This document shows, one piece after another, positions 5,405-13,025 of a DNA stretch of 64,000 bases. The stretch covers positions 62,001 to 126,000 of the forward strand of contig WYBW01000020.1 in the NCBI GenBank assembly GCA_011525685.1, written 5' to 3'. The notes beneath the pieces were generated by a model. The model ran no database searches. It saw nothing but the letters and a program-made list of their open reading frames with translations, and had not been told where the DNA came from. Each line of letters opens with the position of its first letter. The first letter of the stretch is position 1. The stretch comes from Verrucomicrobiia bacterium (GTDB lineage: Bacteria > Verrucomicrobiota > Verrucomicrobiia > Limisphaerales > JADLHS01). Made by a program: the position numbers and the translations under genes.

Positions 5405-5869
5405 TCAGCAATCGGCCACGGCGGTATCCGTGATGACCGCCAGTTCGAGCTTCTGTCGGACAACCGCCGCGATGGCGGGCTGGCTTGAAGCCTCCGGGTA
5501 GAGCCGCCGATAAACCCAGGCCAGACAGGATTCGATCCAAGGCCGGTTGGCGCGGCGGAAAGCGCGCAACCCATCCCGGTCCGGCCGTGCGCCGGCGCAG
5601 ATGTATCGGGCGGAAGCGTCGCTCTCACAAGCCCGCTCGATGTCGTCCGACCCGTAAATCCCGGCCGCGTAGCAATAGGTCAGCAGCGTCAGCAGCAAAC
5701 CGGGGGCGGGTTGGTCAACACTCAGGGATACAGGTCGCGGCAGACTTTCGCCGACGAAGTGAGCGGCCTCCAAAGCCAGTTCGATGAGCCGGCGCTCACC
5801 AACGACTTGGCGGAGGTCTTCAGGCGCTTCGCGCTCCGGTCGTACCGCATTTGTCGCCACAGTAGTCAT
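5405..5869 (-). CDS. Small protein resembling a transposase N-terminal domain (DUF772-like)
   Basis: A 154-residue protein starting at ATG 5869, with an AGAAAGG ribosome-binding-like stretch upstream; an in-frame start at 6007 would extend into the promoter. The middle (LLTYCYAAGIYGSDDIERAC, then ARPDRDGLRAFRRAN) strongly resembles the N-terminal helical DNA-binding domain of IS1182/IS5-type transposases. It ends with a short unrelated tail, and no DDE catalytic domain follows. No terminal inverted repeats were seen around it. It lies just before the phosphate module, with a Pho-box-like promoter directly upstream, which suggests a domesticated DNA-binding protein used in phosphate starvation. 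That role is inference. A decayed IS fragment is the alternative, but the frame is intact. Confidence 0.72.
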   Translation of the reverse strand: MTTVATNAVRPEREAPEDLRQVVGERRLIELALEAAHFVGESLPRPVSLSVDQPAPGLLLTLLTYCYAAGIYGSDDIERACESDASARYICAGARPDRDGLRAFRRANRPWIESCLAWVYRRLYPEASSQPAIAAVVRQKLELAVITDTAVADC

Positions 5870-5911
5870 GTCGGGCCTTTCTTTGACCTGCCGCCAAGGT
5901 CCTCGCTGCCC

Positions 5912-5951
5912 ATTACAACTCCATCTCGGAAATGTTACAATCCGATGACAA
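5912..5951 (-). promoter_or_regulatory. Pho-box-like promoter for the transposase-domain gene
   Basis: On the minus strand the sequence TTGTCAT-cgga-TTGTAAC (5951 down to 5934) has two half-sites repeated every 11 bases, the layout of a PhoB binding site. A TGTAAT at 5917-5912 sits where a -10 box is expected. The ATG of the small gene at 5869 lies about 40 bases further on. The same two-half-site pattern (TTGTCAC-caaa-TTGTAAC) occurs in front of phoU at 7472-7489. Confidence 0.7.
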
Positions 5952-6089: not shown

Positions 6090-7268
6090 TCACCAACCAA
6101 GGCGCAGCCCCGTTGTCCAGGCCCAGCCGGAGTATTCGCCGCCGTCGTGGGCCCGGTCCTGCATGTCGGCGTATTGCACACCCGTCTGGATCTTGAGTTT
6201 GTGTCCGTAGAAGTAGTAGTTCAGGCCGAGGTAGATTTCCTGGTATTCATCGCCCCGGCCCGCCACCACCTCGTTTTCATAACTGGCAAACCGAACGCCA
6301 TTGTCATCGCGGCTGCGCAGCCAGGTGTAGCGCGCCACGGCTTGGAATTTGGAGGTGAGGTTGTAGTAGGGCATGAGCATGAAGCCCCAGAGGTCGCTTT
6401 GTCCTTGGTAGCCCAGTCCGCCCGCGAGGTCGGTGCGGAAACCCCACTTGCCGGTGTCGAAACTAAAATTCAACGATCCCACATCTCCAAACGGGCGCGT
6501 GAATGTATTGTTTTTGTCCTCCTCCTGGTAAACGTAATTGAAGGCCAGAACCGCCTTCTTCGCCTCTATGGATTCCGCGAAATCGTATCCGATTGTCGAG
6601 AGAACAAAGAAGCCGCCGTCGAACCGGCCAAACTCGGGCGTGGCGCTGCCTGCGGTGTAAACTCCAAGGTGATACCGCCACTTCCCCGACCGGCCCGCCA
6701 CAGTCACCCCTGGGATGTACTCCTGAGAGAACCACAGGTTGTTGGCCAGGTTGGCGCGGTCAATCGCCAGAAGTTCCTTGGAAGACGTGGATCCGTCCAT
6801 GGTAAAGGGCGCGCCGCGTTTGCCCACGGTGAGTTCGACGGCGTCGCCTGGTTTCCAGGCAATGTAGGCATCCGTCAATCGCTGATACACCGGATCTTCT
6901 TCGGGCTGCAAGTCCACTTCCGAATGTACCGTGAAGTTCTTGAACAATGTGGCCTTGCCGCCCAGTCGAAAGCGGCGGATGTGCAGGTCATCGAAGTCAT
7001 CGTGATCCAAAATCGCATAGTCGAGTTGAAAGCGACCCGTAAACTGGAAGTTCTGAATGATCGGGTTGTCTTCGTTCTTGTACCAGTCCGTGTAGCTCCA
7101 AATCCGGTCGTAAATCGAGGGAGCCAAGGTTGAGGCTGTGGGAGTCGCCTTCTGGGGTTCGATTGGCGGTACCGTGCCCGCGAAGGAAATGATGCCGCAA
7201 AGTACCAGCGCAAAAAGCGCCGCGTAAGCCTGCTTGTCGTGCCTCGACCGTATTCTGATTGACCGCAT
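6090..7268 (-). CDS. Phosphate-selective porin O/P-like outer-membrane channel
   Basis: Outer-membrane beta-barrel of 392 residues resembling the OprO/OprP family. It has a signal peptide (ALFALVLCGIISFAGTVPP), an N-terminal FQFTGRFQLDYAILD strand, alternating aromatic beta-strand segments throughout, and a C-terminal strand ending TTGLRLGW, suited to BAM insertion. It is transcribed divergently from the phoU-pst operon, which supports a role in phosphate entry across the outer membrane; the family also includes porins for other anions. The start at 7268 has no strong ribosome-binding site. The Pho-box-like site at 7472-7489 lies about 200 bases upstream and could serve both directions. Confidence 0.85.
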   Translation of the reverse strand: MRSIRIRSRHDKQAYAALFALVLCGIISFAGTVPPIEPQKATPTASTLAPSIYDRIWSYTDWYKNEDNPIIQNFQFTGRFQLDYAILDHDDFDDLHIRRFRLGGKATLFKNFTVHSEVDLQPEEDPVYQRLTDAYIAWKPGDAVELTVGKRGAPFTMDGSTSSKELLAIDRANLANNLWFSQEYIPGVTVAGRSGKWRYHLGVYTAGSATPEFGRFDGGFFVLSTIGYDFAESIEAKKAVLAFNYVYQEEDKNNTFTRPFGDVGSLNFSFDTGKWGFRTDLAGGLGYQGQSDLWGFMLMPYYNLTSKFQAVARYTWLRSRDDNGVRFASYENEVVAGRGDEYQEIYLGLNYYFYGHKLKIQTGVQYADMQDRAHDGGEYSGWAWTTGLRLGW

Positions 7269-7471: not shown

Positions 7472-7489
7472 TTGTCACCAAATTGTAAC
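7472..7489 (+). promoter_or_regulatory. Pho-box-like site upstream of the phoU-pst operon
   Basis: TTGTCAC-caaa-TTGTAAC: two half-sites with an 11-base period, 63 bases before the phoU ATG at 7553. The pattern fits the PhoB consensus of 11-base direct repeats, and its position in front of a pst operon is the expected one. The downstream -10 box is weak. The rest of the 284-base divergent region (7269-7552) shows nothing else recognisable. Confidence 0.75.
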
Positions 7490-7552: not shown

Positions 7553-8650
7553 ATGGCAACGCATCTCGAGGAATCGCTGCAACGAGACATGGACCGCATC
7601 CGCACCAAGGTGACGGAGATGGCGGGACTGGCCGAAGGCGCGCTCGCCGCGAGCCTGCGCGCCTTGGTCGAGGGCAAACGCCAGATGGCCTACGCCATCA
7701 TTCTGCGTGACCAGCGGATTGACGCGCTGGAACAGGAAATTGACCGGCTCTGCCTGGAGTTTCTGGTGCGGCAACAACCCGTAGCCAAGCAGCTCCGTTT
7801 TGCCTACGTCACCATCAAGATCAACCAGGAAATCGAACGCATCGGCGATTACGCCGAAAGCGTCGCGCGGCAGATTCTCAAGGTTGCGGGAATGAAACTG
7901 TCCCTCCCGCAGGATCAGTATCGCCAGATTGCCGGGCTGACCATCCCGATGTTCCACGATGCGGTAAGGGCTTACCTGGTGGAAGACGCCGAACTGGCGC
8001 GCCGGACTCTCCGTGTCGAAGAGCAAGTGGATGAATTGCGGAACGTGCTCAACGCCGAACTGGTCCAGCTTCGTCAGGAAAACAAGATACCACTCGAAGC
8101 TCTGACACCGTTGATGACCATTGCGCGCCGGTTCGAGCGCGCGTCGGATCAGGCCAAGAACATTTGCGAGGAAACCCTGTACATGCTGACCGGCGAGTAT
8201 CAAAAACACGCCGCCGGCGACACTTGGCGCGTGCTGTTTGTGGATGAACACAATGCCTGTCGCAGCCAGATGGCCCAGGCCATCGCCGAATCGCTCGGTC
8301 AATCCCGATTCCTGTTCACGAGCGCGGGACTCGATCCGAAGCCGGTGGCGCCGGCCCTGGTTTCCTTTCTCAAGGACAAGGGAATGGACATTACGAATGC
8401 GACGTCGCGTTCCGTGGAAAGCGTGCCGAACCTGGAGGCTTACCAAGTCGTGGTAGCGCTGACCCCGGAAGCGAAGCGCGCTTTTCCGAGCAAGTCCAAG
8501 CCCGTGTGTCTCGACTGGAGCGTGCCCGACCCGTTGCTCGTCACCGGCACGCCGACCGAAGTCAAGCAAGCCTTCGAGGAGACGTATCAGAACCTTCGCG
8601 CCCAGATCAACGACCTGGTCGAGGGCATCCTCGCCGACACAATTGACTGA
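7553..8650 (+). CDS. phoU: PhoU fused to a low-molecular-weight phosphatase/arsenate-reductase-like domain
   Basis: Phosphate-signalling protein of 365 residues starting at ATG 7553; the open frame upstream runs into the promoter. Residues 1-215 are a PhoU helical bundle (EESLQRDMDRI, ALEQEIDRL, NQEIERIGDYAESVAR, RRFERASDQAKNICEE), expected to bind the PstB/PhoR complex and switch transport and signalling. Residues 225-365 form an LMW-PTP/ArsC fold, with the P-loop reading VLFVDEHNACRSQMAQ. The catalytic Cys position is Asp231, although Arg237-Ser238 and the later DWSVPDPL general-acid loop are kept. Cys236 sits just before the Arg and is not the usual nucleophile. The second domain is therefore probably inactive, perhaps a phosphate or arsenate sensor. 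It is the first gene of the pst operon. Confidence 0.92.
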   Translation: MATHLEESLQRDMDRIRTKVTEMAGLAEGALAASLRALVEGKRQMAYAIILRDQRIDALEQEIDRLCLEFLVRQQPVAKQLRFAYVTIKINQEIERIGDYAESVARQILKVAGMKLSLPQDQYRQIAGLTIPMFHDAVRAYLVEDAELARRTLRVEEQVDELRNVLNAELVQLRQENKIPLEALTPLMTIARRFERASDQAKNICEETLYMLTGEYQKHAAGDTWRVLFVDEHNACRSQMAQAIAESLGQSRFLFTSAGLDPKPVAPALVSFLKDKGMDITNATSRSVESVPNLEAYQVVVALTPEAKRAFPSKSKPVCLDWSVPDPLLVTGTPTEVKQAFEETYQNLRAQINDLVEGILADTID

Positions 8651-8668: not shown

Positions 8669-9565
8669 ATGAAAACGAAACCAAATTCTCAACTGACCAT
8701 CGGCCTGCTGATCCCGGTGTTGTGCGCCGCGGTGCTGCTGACCGGCTGCGGTCGCAAGGCAACGGGCGGCACCACGGCCATCCAGAACATCGGCTCCGAC
8801 ACGATGGTGAATCTTGCCCAGGCGTGGGCGGAGGCGTATCGCAGCGTCAATCCCGCTGTCTCGGTGGAGGTCAGCGGCGGCGGCTCCGGCATCGGAGTGG
8901 CTGCGTTGCTCAACGGCACGGCGGACATCGTAAACAGCTCGCGCCACCTCGAGCCGGACGAACTCGCCCGGGCCAGAGCGAGATACGGTTCGGAGCCGCG
9001 CGAGTTCAAGGTCGCTTACGACGCCCTGGCCATTTACGTGCATCCCAGCAATCCCATCAATGAAATCTCGGTCGAGGAACTCAGCGCGATTTATCGCGAA
9101 GGCGGTTCGATCAACAAATGGTCCGACCTGGGCGTGACGCTGCCGGGCCGGCATGATGAGATCATCCGCGTCAGTCGCCAGAACAACTCGGGCACCTATC
9201 ATTACTTCCGCGAAGCCGTGGTCGGCGCGAAGGCCGACTTCAAACCCGGCTCCCGCGATTTGAACGGCTCGAAGGACGTGGTCGCTCTGGTCGAAGGGAC
9301 CCCCAGCGCCATCGGTTACAGTGGCATCGGCTACCGCACCGACAAGGTGAAGGTGCTGAAAATTTCCCGCAAGAAAGGCGAACCGGGCGTCGAACCGAGC
9401 GTGGCGACAACCCTCGACAAGACCTACCCGATTGCACGCCCGATGTTTTTCTACACTCCACCGGACGCTCCCGCGCACGTCACGGAGTACATCAACTGGG
9501 TCTTGAGCCCGGCGGGACAGGCCATTGTCACCGACAAGGGCTACATTCCGCTGGAGGCCAAGTGA
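8669..9565 (+). CDS. pstS: Phosphate ABC transporter substrate-binding lipoprotein
   Basis: Periplasmic phosphate receptor of 298 residues. It has a lipoprotein signal with lipobox LLTGC (Cys27) and typical PstS-family phosphate-contact loops: GSDTM near the N-terminus, SGGGSGIGVAAL, and SRQNNSGTYHYFRE. Type II periplasmic binding fold. The gene begins 18 bases after phoU and is followed by pstC after a short gap, all on one strand. It delivers phosphate to PstC/PstA. Confidence 0.95.
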   Translation: MKTKPNSQLTIGLLIPVLCAAVLLTGCGRKATGGTTAIQNIGSDTMVNLAQAWAEAYRSVNPAVSVEVSGGGSGIGVAALLNGTADIVNSSRHLEPDELARARARYGSEPREFKVAYDALAIYVHPSNPINEISVEELSAIYREGGSINKWSDLGVTLPGRHDEIIRVSRQNNSGTYHYFREAVVGAKADFKPGSRDLNGSKDVVALVEGTPSAIGYSGIGYRTDKVKVLKISRKKGEPGVEPSVATTLDKTYPIARPMFFYTPPDAPAHVTEYINWVLSPAGQAIVTDKGYIPLEAK

Positions 9566-9632: not shown

Positions 9633-10571
9633 ATGATTTCCCGACGCCGCCGTTACGAAATCCTGTCCGAACGCAGCATTGAGACGCTGATCTACCTTTG
9701 CGGCATCAGCGCCATCATTTTTGTCTTTGGGATTTGCTTCTTCGTGTTCCGCGAGGGGCTTCCGCTGGTTTTCAAGGAGGACACCAACTTCAGCCTGGGC
9801 AAGTTCTTCTTCAGCACCGAATGGTTTCCCACTTCGATGGCCAACAAACGTTACGGCGCGCTGGCCTTGATCGTCGGCACGCTGACCGTCACGATTCTGG
9901 CGATGGTCATCGCAGTCCCCTTCGCGCTGGGCGCGACAGTCTTCCTGTCAGAATTCTGCGGAGGCAAGTTCCGGGAAACGCTCAAAATTGTCATCGAATT
10001 GCTGGCCGCCATTCCCAGCATCGTGTGGGGTTTCATCGGGTTGACGGTGATCAATCCGCTGATCATCCAGGTCTTCCACGTGCCGGTGGGCCTGAACGCT
10101 CTCAACGGCGCGGTCATTCTCGCCCTCATGGCCATGCCCATCATGGTGTCCATCGGCGAGGACGCGCTCAAAGCCGTGCCGGACAGCTACCGGGAGGCGG
10201 CGCTGGCCTTGGGCGCCACGCGCTGGCAAATGGTGTTCCGCGTGCTGCTGCCCGCCGCCAAGAACGGTCTGCTGGCTGCTGTGCTCCTGGGCGTGGGCCG
10301 CGCCGTCGGCGAGACCATGGGCGTGCTCATGGCCACGGGCCACGCCGTCAACATTCCCTTTTTTCGCGACGACGGCAGCTTCAACTGGGGCTGGATGTTC
10401 GAGAGCGTCCGCACGCTGACCGCCACCATCGCCGCCGAACTGGGGGAAACCAGCCAGGGCAGTGATCATTACCGCGTGTTGTTCCTCATCGGCGTCCTCC
10501 TCCTGAGCATCACCTTTGTCATCAACCTGACCGCCGACCTGGTGGTCAAAGGCATCCGCAAGCAGAAGTGA
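9633..10571 (+). CDS. pstC: Phosphate ABC transporter permease PstC
   Basis: Inner-membrane permease of 312 residues. The ATG at 9633 fits the family; an upstream in-frame start at 9525 would overlap pstS. It shows an N-terminal transmembrane helix (LIYLCGISAIIFVFG), about six helices in total, and the binding-protein-dependent permease loop (YREAALALGATRWQMVFRVLLP) that contacts the ATPase. The GRAVGETMGVLMATGHA stretch is characteristic of PstC. Its stop overlaps the pstA start by four bases. Confidence 0.94.
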   Translation: MISRRRRYEILSERSIETLIYLCGISAIIFVFGICFFVFREGLPLVFKEDTNFSLGKFFFSTEWFPTSMANKRYGALALIVGTLTVTILAMVIAVPFALGATVFLSEFCGGKFRETLKIVIELLAAIPSIVWGFIGLTVINPLIIQVFHVPVGLNALNGAVILALMAMPIMVSIGEDALKAVPDSYREAALALGATRWQMVFRVLLPAAKNGLLAAVLLGVGRAVGETMGVLMATGHAVNIPFFRDDGSFNWGWMFESVRTLTATIAAELGETSQGSDHYRVLFLIGVLLLSITFVINLTADLVVKGIRKQK

Positions 10572-11491
10572 ACTCCACTCCCTCCAGCCCCGCCACATCA
10601 CCCGCGCCGTTCGTCAGCAATCCGCGCGTCCGCCGCAAGCTCCGGCAGGAACGGATCGCCCAGGCCGTCTTCGCAACGATGGTCGTGCTGATGCTGTTGC
10701 CGTTGCTGGGAATCCTGGTGTATCTGGTGGTGCGCGGCGCGCCGTTGATCTCCTGGGAGTTTCTCACCACCAATCCCAGCAAGGGCATGACCGCGGGCGG
10801 CATCTGGAGCGCGCTGCTGGGCACCGTCTGGCTGGTCGTCGTCTCGCTCGCCTTCAGCGCGCCCATCGGAGTGCTGGCGGCGGTCTATCTGAACGAGTAC
10901 GCCAAGGACAACTGGTTTACGCGGGTGGTGAACCTGGCCGTGGTGAATCTGGCGGGCGTGCCCAGCATCGTTCATGCGTTGTTTGGCCTCGGGGCCTTCG
11001 TTTTGTTCTTCGGCATGGGACGCAGCATTCTGGCCGCCTCGCTCACCTTGGCCGTCATGACGATGCCAGTGGTCATCACCGCCACCCGCGAGGCGCTGGG
11101 CGCCGTGCCGATGAGCTTCCGCGAAGCCTGCTGGAACGTGGGCGCCACGCGATGGCAAACCATCCGCCGCATCGTGCTGCCGAACGCCGTCAGCGGCATC
11201 CTCACCGGCGTGATTCTGGAGATCAGCCGCAAGGCCGGGGAAACCGTGCCCATCATGTTCACCGGCGCGGTGTTCTTCCGCGCCATCCCGGAAGGCGACC
11301 TCTTTGCGTATCGGCTCACCGACCAATGCATGGCGCTCTCCATGCATCTCTATACCGTCACCACCCAGGTCACCGGCGCGCCCGCGGCGCTGCCGTTTGC
11401 CGTCGCCACCGTCCTGATCCTGGCCATCATTCTCATCAACGCCACGTCCATCGCCATCCGGGCGTGGTTGCGCAGCCACCGGAAGTGGTGA
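10568..11491 (+). CDS. pstA: Phosphate ABC transporter permease PstA
   Basis: Second inner-membrane permease, 307 residues, starting at a GTG that overlaps the pstC stop (GTGA), which implies translational coupling. It has six or so hydrophobic helices (TMVVLMLLPLLGILVYLVV first) and the coupling loop SFREACWNVGATRWQTIRRI. The conserved SRKAGETVPIMFTGAVF region follows and is typical of PstA. It forms the channel with PstC. Confidence 0.94.
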   Translation: MNSTPSSPATSPAPFVSNPRVRRKLRQERIAQAVFATMVVLMLLPLLGILVYLVVRGAPLISWEFLTTNPSKGMTAGGIWSALLGTVWLVVVSLAFSAPIGVLAAVYLNEYAKDNWFTRVVNLAVVNLAGVPSIVHALFGLGAFVLFFGMGRSILAASLTLAVMTMPVVITATREALGAVPMSFREACWNVGATRWQTIRRIVLPNAVSGILTGVILEISRKAGETVPIMFTGAVFFRAIPEGDLFAYRLTDQCMALSMHLYTVTTQVTGAPAALPFAVATVLILAIILINATSIAIRAWLRSHRKW

Positions 11492-11493
11492 CC

Positions 11494-12258
11494 ATGCACG
11501 ACTCGCCGCCCAAGATCAAAGTGGAGCAATTCTCCTCGTGGTACGGGGACAAACCCGTCCACAAGGAAATTTCCTTTCACGTCCGCGCCAACGAGGTGCT
11601 CGGCATCATCGGCCCGGCGCAGAGCGGCAAGACCACCCTGTTGCGGGCCATCAATCGTACTCTCGAACTGACCGCGGGCGCCCGCAGCACCGGCACGATT
11701 CAGGTGGATGGAGAGGACGTCCGCTGGGTCGCCAATGTGTATGAATTGCGCCGCAAAATCGGCATGGTCGCCCCGCTGCCCGTCGGCCTGCCTCTGACCA
11801 TATACGACAACGTGGCCTTCGCGCCGCGCTGCGCGGGGTTGTCGCGCAAGAGCGACCTCGACGCCCTGGTGGAAAAGTGTCTGCGGCAAGCGGCGCTCTG
11901 GGACGAGGTCAAGGACCGCTTGGACAGTCTGGGCACGAAACTCTCCGGCGGCCAGCAACAGCGGCTCACCATCGCGCGGGCCCTGTCCCACCAGCCGGAG
12001 ATCCTTTGCCTCGATGAGTTTTCCATCGCCATTGATCCGGTGACCACCATGCGGATCGAGGAGGTGCTGAAGGAACTGCGCAAGGACATCACCATCATTC
12101 TGGTCACCAACCTGACGCAACAGGCGCGCCGCCTGGCCGATCGCACGATGTTCCTTTGGAACGGGGAGATCATTCAATTGGACCGGAGCGAGGTGATCTT
12201 CTCGGAGAACCCAGGCAACCAGAAGACTTACGACTACGTCCACGGAATTTTCGGATGA
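11494..12258 (+). CDS. pstB1: Phosphate ABC transporter ATPase PstB1 (switch histidine lost)
   Basis: ATP-binding subunit of 254 residues, ATG three bases after pstA. Walker A is GPAQSGKTT, the signature LSGGQQQR is intact, and Walker B keeps the catalytic acid (CLDEF, Asp174-Glu175), though the family's Pro after Glu is Phe and the D-loop reads SIAIDP instead of SALDP. The switch-loop His, usually VTHN, is Asn206 (LVTNLTQQ). It overlaps pstB2 by ATGA. Together with the altered signature of PstB2 this points to a heterodimeric ATPase with one degenerate site, described under the findings. Confidence 0.92.
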   Translation: MHDSPPKIKVEQFSSWYGDKPVHKEISFHVRANEVLGIIGPAQSGKTTLLRAINRTLELTAGARSTGTIQVDGEDVRWVANVYELRRKIGMVAPLPVGLPLTIYDNVAFAPRCAGLSRKSDLDALVEKCLRQAALWDEVKDRLDSLGTKLSGGQQQRLTIARALSHQPEILCLDEFSIAIDPVTTMRIEEVLKELRKDITIILVTNLTQQARRLADRTMFLWNGEIIQLDRSEVIFSENPGNQKTYDYVHGIFG

Positions 12259-13025
12259 ACGAGCGCGATAACAGCATCACCACCCGCGACCTTTGCCTCT
12301 GGTACGGGAAGTTCCAGGCGCTCATCAACGTCACCATCAACATCCGCCACGGCCTGATCACCTCGCTCATCGGCCCGAGCGGTTGCGGCAAGACCACGCT
12401 CCTGCGCTGCTTCAATCGCATCAACGAACGCTACGGTTACGTCACCACCACGGGCGAAATCAAGCTGCTCAACAAGAACATCTACGACCCGGATGTCTCG
12501 CTGATCGAATTGCGCAAATCCGTGGGCATGGTGTTTCAACGGCCCAACCCGCTGCCCATTTCCGTTTACGAAAACGTCGTGTTCGGCCTGCGCATCCACA
12601 GCGACCGCAAACCCGCACGGAGCGAACTGGATGACGCCGTGGAAAAGGCCCTCACCGAAGTGGGATTGTGGAATGATCTGCGCGACCGGCTCGACACCAA
12701 AGCCACCAACCTGCAACTCGAACAACAACAGAAGCTCTGCATCGCCCGCCTGCTGCCGCTCAAGCCGGAAATCATCTTGATGGACGAACCATGTTCGGCG
12801 CTCGACGTCGAGGCGACGCGCGCCATCGAGGAATTGATGTTGAGCCTCAAGGGCCGCTACTCGATTGTCATCGTCACCCACAACATGGCCCAGGCCCGCC
12901 GCGCCAGCGACGAGTGCATCTTCATGCTGCTGGGCGAGATCATCGAGCACGCGCGGACGGCGGACCTGTTCCTGAATCCAAAGAATCCCAAGACGGCGGA
13001 ATACATCGAAGGCCGGTACGGATGA
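12255..13025 (+). CDS. pstB2: Phosphate ABC transporter ATPase PstB2 (signature motif lost)
   Basis: Second ATP-binding subunit, 256 residues, closest in overall pattern to classical PstB (NRINERYG, MVFQRPNPLPISVYENV, C-terminal EYIEGRYG). Walker A GPSGCGKTT, Walker B ILMDEPCSALD and switch His (IVIVTHNM) are all intact. The ABC signature, normally LSGGQQQR, is LQLEQQQK at residues 153-160, so both signature glycines are missing. It starts within the pstB1 stop codon (ATGA) and ends the operon; the next gene converges 22 bases later. Confidence 0.93.
   Translation: MNERDNSITTRDLCLWYGKFQALINVTINIRHGLITSLIGPSGCGKTTLLRCFNRINERYGYVTTTGEIKLLNKNIYDPDVSLIELRKSVGMVFQRPNPLPISVYENVVFGLRIHSDRKPARSELDDAVEKALTEVGLWNDLRDRLDTKATNLQLEQQQKLCIARLLPLKPEIILMDEPCSALDVEATRAIEELMLSLKGRYSIVIVTHNMAQARRASDECIFMLLGEIIEHARTADLFLNPKNPKTAEYIEGRYG

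Follow-up and report, generated by a model that had tools for sequence, protein, structure and literature searches.

Within a 64,000-nucleotide stretch of contig WYBW01000020.1 from a Verrucomicrobiia bacterium (the window, below), the first gene of a pst (phosphate import) operon, which we call phoU*, encodes a PhoU protein fused to a C-terminal domain with the fold of arsenate reductases (ArsC) and low-molecular-weight (LMW) phosphatases, in which an aspartate (Asp231) occupies the place of the catalytic cysteine. We read this domain as a pseudoenzyme, that is, as a non-catalytic regulatory or contact module of a PhoU that would act with a variant Pst importer, and give this reading a probability of roughly 0.5.

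The 365-residue translation of the phoU* open reading frame (ORF) begins with a complete PhoU: residues 9-215 match the full-length PhoU model TIGR02135 (157.7 bits against a cut-off of 130.25), Pfam recognizes two PhoU repeats in the N-terminal half, and in an alignment of relatives the PhoU motifs are intact (E95-R-I-G-D99 invariant; E195-R-A-S-D199, with D199 nearly invariant). Residues 227-355 match Pfam LMWPc (PF01451; 42.5 bits, cut-off 23.2). The fold was predicted with high confidence by an AlphaFold2 model of the whole protein computed with 68 relatives as input (mean predicted local distance difference test score [pLDDT] 92; a model of the isolated domain, folded without an alignment, had a pLDDT of 42 and was not used), which Foldseek aligned with PhoU 1t72 at a template modelling (TM) score of 0.95 and with the arsenate reductases 8p6m and 1jl3 at about 0.85. 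By sequence, too, the nearest profiles and solved structures for the C-terminal domain are arsenate reductases. A first-pass annotation of the window had assigned the domain to the LMW phosphatase/arsenate reductase fold; that assignment stands, refined in that ArsC is nearer than the LMW protein tyrosine phosphatases (PTPs). The domain nevertheless scores 56 bits with the arsenate reductase model TIGR02691, below its cut-off of 174.3, and thus falls outside ArsC as that model defines it.

The P-loop of PhoU* reads LFVDEHNACRSQMA, and the translation bears out what the same annotation had noted, namely that Asp231 (codon GAT) occupies the place of the nucleophilic Cys of LMW PTPs and ArsC. Full-length fusions were gathered from relatives, from a set of 85 thousand species genomes and from surveys at phylum and class level; removal of near-copies left 87 non-redundant full-length rows (the relatives counted below). 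As labelled, the fusions are from Verrucomicrobiota, Lentisphaerae, Acidobacteriota, Myxococcota, Planctomycetota, Fibrobacterota, KSB1, Calditrichota, Raymondbacteria and Desulfobacterota-like genomes, representing at least eight phyla. Position 231 is Asp in 82 rows, Gly in three, and Cys and Glu in one each, an excess of Asp far beyond chance; the CX5RS P-loop with its Cys nucleophile is accordingly absent from PhoU* and from these 82 relatives. With the P-loop columns excluded from the tree, the whole clade has Asp as its state, and codon 231 has undergone 19 synonymous changes between GAC and GAT as against five amino-acid changes, which indicates purifying selection on Asp itself. Among the 142 columns of the domain, Asp231 ranks 14th in conservation and Arg237 81st; judged from the aligned sequences, it is Asp, rather than Arg, that selection keeps. 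A sequencing error at the GAT codon is ruled out, because Asp is conserved in more than 80 genomes, with GAC and GAT both in use. One natural variant, from a metagenome-assembled genome labelled Desulfobacterium (L100:8001-9095), has Cys (TGC) at position 231 and retains Arg and the acid-loop Asp; because it is nested in the Asp clade, beside a Gly-bearing sister (L106) and with Asp in another close relative (L178), its Cys is a late departure and not the ancestral state. A rule that Asp is lost solely where Arg is kept is true of the 87 rows, and was dropped when later members broke it (L193, Glu/Tyr; L198, Gly/Leu).

Strong conservation could also mean that Asp231 is a new nucleophile or phospho-acceptor, as in an aspartate-type phosphatase or a receiver-like relay. 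Asp231 recalls proteins of the HAD and receiver families, in which an Asp closes the first strand of a Rossmann-like fold, but PhoU* lacks the second, +2 Asp of HAD proteins (residue 233 is mostly His or Arg), its third strand does not end in a conserved Asp (residues 303-305 are L-S/A/D-P/K) and no Arg or Lys for phosphoryl handling is conserved; we regard such chemistry as highly improbable.

The rest of the pocket is conserved unevenly. In LMW PTPs and ArsC the Arg of the P-loop is the side chain that holds phosphate. The first-pass annotation had described Arg237 and the acid loop as kept, which is true of the window protein (codon CGC; D326-P327) but for Arg237 does not extend to the family, where it is retained in 51/87 and lost in 36 (41%), with 23 changes on the tree and Leu, Ala, Thr, Val and others as substitutes; all 36 Arg-less rows retain Asp231. 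The frame of the pocket (F229, S257-A-G259, W322, D326 and P327) is conserved, including the DP acid loop shared with LMW PTPs (D326 in 76/87), and three columns of the domain are invariant (F229, F255 and W322), so that the fold and the loop are under selection and the phosphate grip is not. The redox cysteines of ArsC are absent: Cys occurs in more than a few members solely at column 236 and at the variable column 319, and the catalytic triad of ArsC (Cys10, 82 and 89, or 8, 80 and 82) is missing, whereas standalone and Cys-type relatives retain C10/C82-84/C88-92. Catalysis through Cys236 is disfavoured, this residue being the second, non-nucleophilic P-loop Cys of ArsC (position 15 in pI258), which is lost in 14 of the relatives. 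On these residues the domain has most likely lost both Cys-phosphatase and arsenate-reductase activity, in agreement with the earlier description of a pocket without chemistry.

Three further readings compete with a non-catalytic module. The first-pass annotation had proposed a built-in phosphate or arsenate sensor, in which an oxyanion bound in the P-loop would be reported to PhoU; the part of this proposal that concerns phosphate status is well founded (the operon is a phosphate operon, phoU* is its first gene, and a pho-box-like repeat precedes it), and the P-loop frame, the SAG strand and the acid loop are conserved, as is Arg237 in just over half of the family, window protein included. 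A carboxylate on the floor of the P-loop should, however, repel an oxyanion, and a sensor that kept the same ligand should keep the residue that grips it; because Arg237 is lost in so many members while the anion-repelling Asp stays, the idea of a sensor pocket is weakened, and we consider it unlikely, though conceivable for the members that retain Arg, the window protein among them. The same acidic residues might instead form a cation site, in which Asp231 and Asp326, often with Glu or Asp at 232, would face each other and hold either a metal ion or a partner's basic side chain, this binding being the signal. PhoU proteins carry acidic motifs known to bind metal, both Asp231 and D326 are kept in 28 of the 36 Arg-less members, and 60 of 87 relatives have an acidic residue at 232, but positions 232 and 233 vary (36 and 32 changes, respectively) and some members (L096, L102 and L103) have no acid loop; we hold this explanation to be doubtful, and place it second, after the non-catalytic module in an asymmetric Pst system and before the phosphate sensor. 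Finally, the loss of the catalytic Cys, of the redox Cys and, in many lineages, of Arg, together with a mean column entropy above that of the PhoU half (1.87 versus 1.47 bits), is what a decaying, functionless remnant of a PhoU-arsenate reductase fusion might display. The domain has nevertheless been retained across all of these phyla, with its invariant aromatic residues and with purifying selection on Asp231, and we think decay quite improbable.

The non-catalytic module would find a possible partner in the operon, whose order is phoU*-pstS-pstC-pstA-pstB1-pstB2: phoU* is followed by pstS in 77 of 77 loci with downstream sequence, and pstC-A-B1-B2 come next wherever the contig allows. PstB1 and PstB2 both miss the PstB equivalog cut-off (TIGR00972) and are PstB relatives by neighbourhood and best match, and a clear gap divides PstB1-type proteins from canonical PstB (at least 62% identity versus at most 50%); no canonical PstB was found at E 1e-60 in the source genome. 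The two ATPases have lost complementary motifs, a pattern that holds in more than 60 genomes. In PstB1 the Q-loop Gln is Pro and the H-loop His is Asn in 64/64 sequences, with Walker A, Walker B and LSGGQ retained; in PstB2 the LSGGQ signature is L(Q/L)LEQ in 61/61, with Walker A, Walker B and the Q- and H-loops retained. Because one ATP site draws its Walker A/B motifs and its Q- and H-loops from one subunit and its signature from the partner (PMC7756269), the losses in PstB1 and PstB2 fall in the same composite site. If the two subunits pair, as the complementarity of their motifs leads us to assume, this is the placement expected of an asymmetric ATPase, and of the importer's two ATP sites one should work and the other be degenerate.

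The mechanism that we infer is as follows. The domain would descend from the arsenate reductases, as one branch of the LMW-phosphatase fold; a single replacement of the nucleophilic Cys by Asp would have taken place no later than the base of the family, with Asp kept ever since. This PhoU variant would work with one particular importer, PstSCA-PstB1-PstB2, whose ATPase would be an asymmetric heterodimer, with a canonical site made of the PstB2 Walker A/B, Q- and H-loops and the PstB1 LSGGQ, and a degenerate site made of the PstB1 Walker A/B (Gln and His lost) and the PstB2 LQLEQ. The Asp231 carboxylate would take the place of the substrate oxyanion or of the thiolate and bond to the backbone amides of the P-loop, which would thereby be locked in a filled-like shape without phosphate. 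The domain could then serve as a fixed contact surface for PhoU* itself, for the PstB1/PstB2 pair or for a PhoR-like kinase, and this contact would couple the state of the transporter to Pho signalling.

Several observations weigh against this account. Asp231 is not absolute (Gly, Glu and one Cys exist at this position, and two such members are without Arg), and the retention of D326 in most Arg-less members fits a cation pocket as well as it fits a locked loop. The PstB1-PstB2 heterodimer is an assumption from motif complementarity. Moreover, five genomes (G046, G047, G403, G225 and G279) have the PstB1B2 importer together with a plain PhoU, located downstream or in the vicinity, or without any PhoU that could be found, and the domain is therefore not essential to the asymmetric ATPase; a strict coupling of the two was rejected, the relation being one-way, in that PhoU* implies PstB1B2 and not the reverse. 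In one of these five genomes, G046 (L148:8647-9297), pstSCAB1B2 is accompanied by a third, PstB2-like gene (42% identity) and a divergent plain PhoU.

As to origin, a tree of the C-terminal domains places the Asp type among arsenate reductases, as a single clade on a long branch at its stem, and the Asp-type PhoUs likewise form one clade in a tree of the PhoU half. Other genomes within the same phylum carry, in canonical pst operons, PhoU-ArsC fusions with an intact Cys (L154:7538-8599, L155:5892-6887 and L156:6614-7543), apparently as an arsenate detoxifier tied to the phosphate importer. Like PhoU*, they have PhoU followed by an ArsC domain within a pst operon; unlike it, they keep the nucleophilic and redox Cys, have a canonical PstB, stand after pstB and are of separate origin. 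A single origin for all PhoU-ArsC fusions is rejected by the approximately unbiased test (p 0.00023, with long branches as a caveat); since the Asp-type and Cys-type fusions are not one clade, PhoU gained ArsC domains on separate occasions, and in one lineage the domain probably turned into a pseudoenzyme. PhoU* was not found on known plasmids.

The features of the window are collected in Table 1. The strict pattern of the direct repeat upstream of phoU* recurs within 250 bp upstream in 12 of 79 relatives, mostly at -58 to -145, and in 0 of 1580 shuffles, and the repeat thus looks, in sequence and position, as expected of a pho box. A second strict pho-box-like repeat, TTGTCATCGGATTGTAAC, lies at 5934-5951 on the minus strand, upstream of a minus-strand ORF at about 5405-5875 that weakly resembles the DUF772 transposase domain. 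One other PhoU was found in the genome, a plain one located away from pst genes and between unrelated genes (L133:9516-10376); about 500 bp upstream of it is a receiver-like ORF (G000:C47:33854-34189).

Table 1. Features of the phoU* operon and its surroundings (positions in the window)
Feature	Position	Strand	Remarks
Phosphate-selective porin (Porin_O_P)	6090..7268	-	Divergent, upstream of phoU*; PF07396, 63.4 bits
Pho-box-like direct repeat TTGTCAC-CAAA-TTGTAAC	7472..7489	+	Starts 81 bp before the phoU* start codon
phoU*	7553..8650	+	PhoU (residues 1-222) and putative ArsC/LMWPTP-fold pseudoenzyme domain (residues 224-365)
Degenerate P-loop FVDEHNACRS	8237..8266	+	Residues 229-238, read from translation
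Codon GAT, Asp231	8243..8245	+	Nucleophile position
Codon CGC, Arg237	8261..8263	+	Kept here
Acid loop W322-SVPD326-P327	8516..8533	+	W322 invariant
pstS, phosphate-binding protein	8669..9565	+	TIGR02136 above cut-off
pstC, permease	9633..10571	+	TIGR02138 above cut-off; start codon tentative
pstA, permease	10568..11491	+	TIGR00974 above cut-off
pstB1, ATPase	11494..12258	+	LSGGQ intact; Q-loop Gln to Pro94, H-loop His to Asn206; TIGR00972 269 (cut-off 343.2)
pstB2, ATPase	12255..13025	+	Walker A/B, Q- and H-loops intact; LSGGQ to LQLEQ (12711-12725); TIGR00972 320.2 (cut-off 343.2)

Each part of the system can be set beside a known one. With PhoU (TIGR02135; 1t72, 1xwm, 4q25), PhoU* shares the two repeats, the E-R-x-x-D motifs, the fold, the pst operon and the pho-box-like promoter repeat, but it has an extra C-terminal domain of about 140 residues, its gene is first in the operon and not last, and it forms its own clade among PhoUs. 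With the thioredoxin- and glutaredoxin-type ArsC proteins (pI258 ArsC, Synechocystis ArsC 2l17 and Deinococcus indicus ArsC2 8p5n/8p6m) the domain has in common its fold, its best sequence match, the P-loop frame, the SAG strand and the DW-xx-DP acid loop; it differs in the Asp at the nucleophile position, in lacking both redox cysteines and often the Arg, and in being fused to PhoU. LMW PTPs (PF01451) and the arginine phosphatase YwlE have the same fold, and the Pfam LMWPc match is above cut-off, but PhoU* is without CX5R(S), and the TM scores (about 0.67-0.70) are below those with ArsC. Two adjacent pstB genes with unequal roles are known from Firmicutes, yet PstB1 and PstB2 of Enterococcus faecalis both have canonical motifs (PMC12096839), whereas the PstB pair of phoU* operons shows complementary losses. 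The asymmetric exporters Pdr5, TAP and BmrCD likewise concentrate their losses in one composite site, and the degenerate signature of Pdr5, LNVEQ, resembles LQLEQ (PMC7756269); they are exporters, however, whereas the PstB pair belongs to a binding-protein-dependent importer and keeps the Walker A Lys and Walker B Glu in the degenerate site. We found no publication on a PhoU fused to a phosphatase or arsenate reductase in the open-access literature, most subscription journals being outside this coverage.

A further parallel lies in the receptor PTP pseudophosphatases of animals (D2 domains and PTPRU), in which selection has preserved a dead phosphatase domain on a signalling protein in a regulatory or binding role (PMC7320164). 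The attachment of a dead phosphatase domain to a signalling protein is common to both, although the animal domains have the unrelated classical PTP fold and usually retain the catalytic Cys; PhoU* would thus be a bacterial counterpart, most of whose carriers are uncultured lineages recovered by metagenomics. It has long been asked how PhoU senses what the Pst transporter is doing, a question for which canonical PhoU and PstB give few natural variants to compare. Here both partners are altered in a fixed way, PhoU by a probably dead domain with a conserved Asp and the ATPase by division into subunits with complementary losses. We suggest, tentatively, that this may be a new kind of import and signalling system, namely a Pst with one hydrolysing and one regulatory ATP site, the occupancy of which would be read through an Asp-locked, PhoU-borne pseudo-ArsC, so that transport and Pho signalling would be structurally separated. 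D231 and the degenerate ATP site would then offer defined single-residue handles on the separability of transport and signalling.
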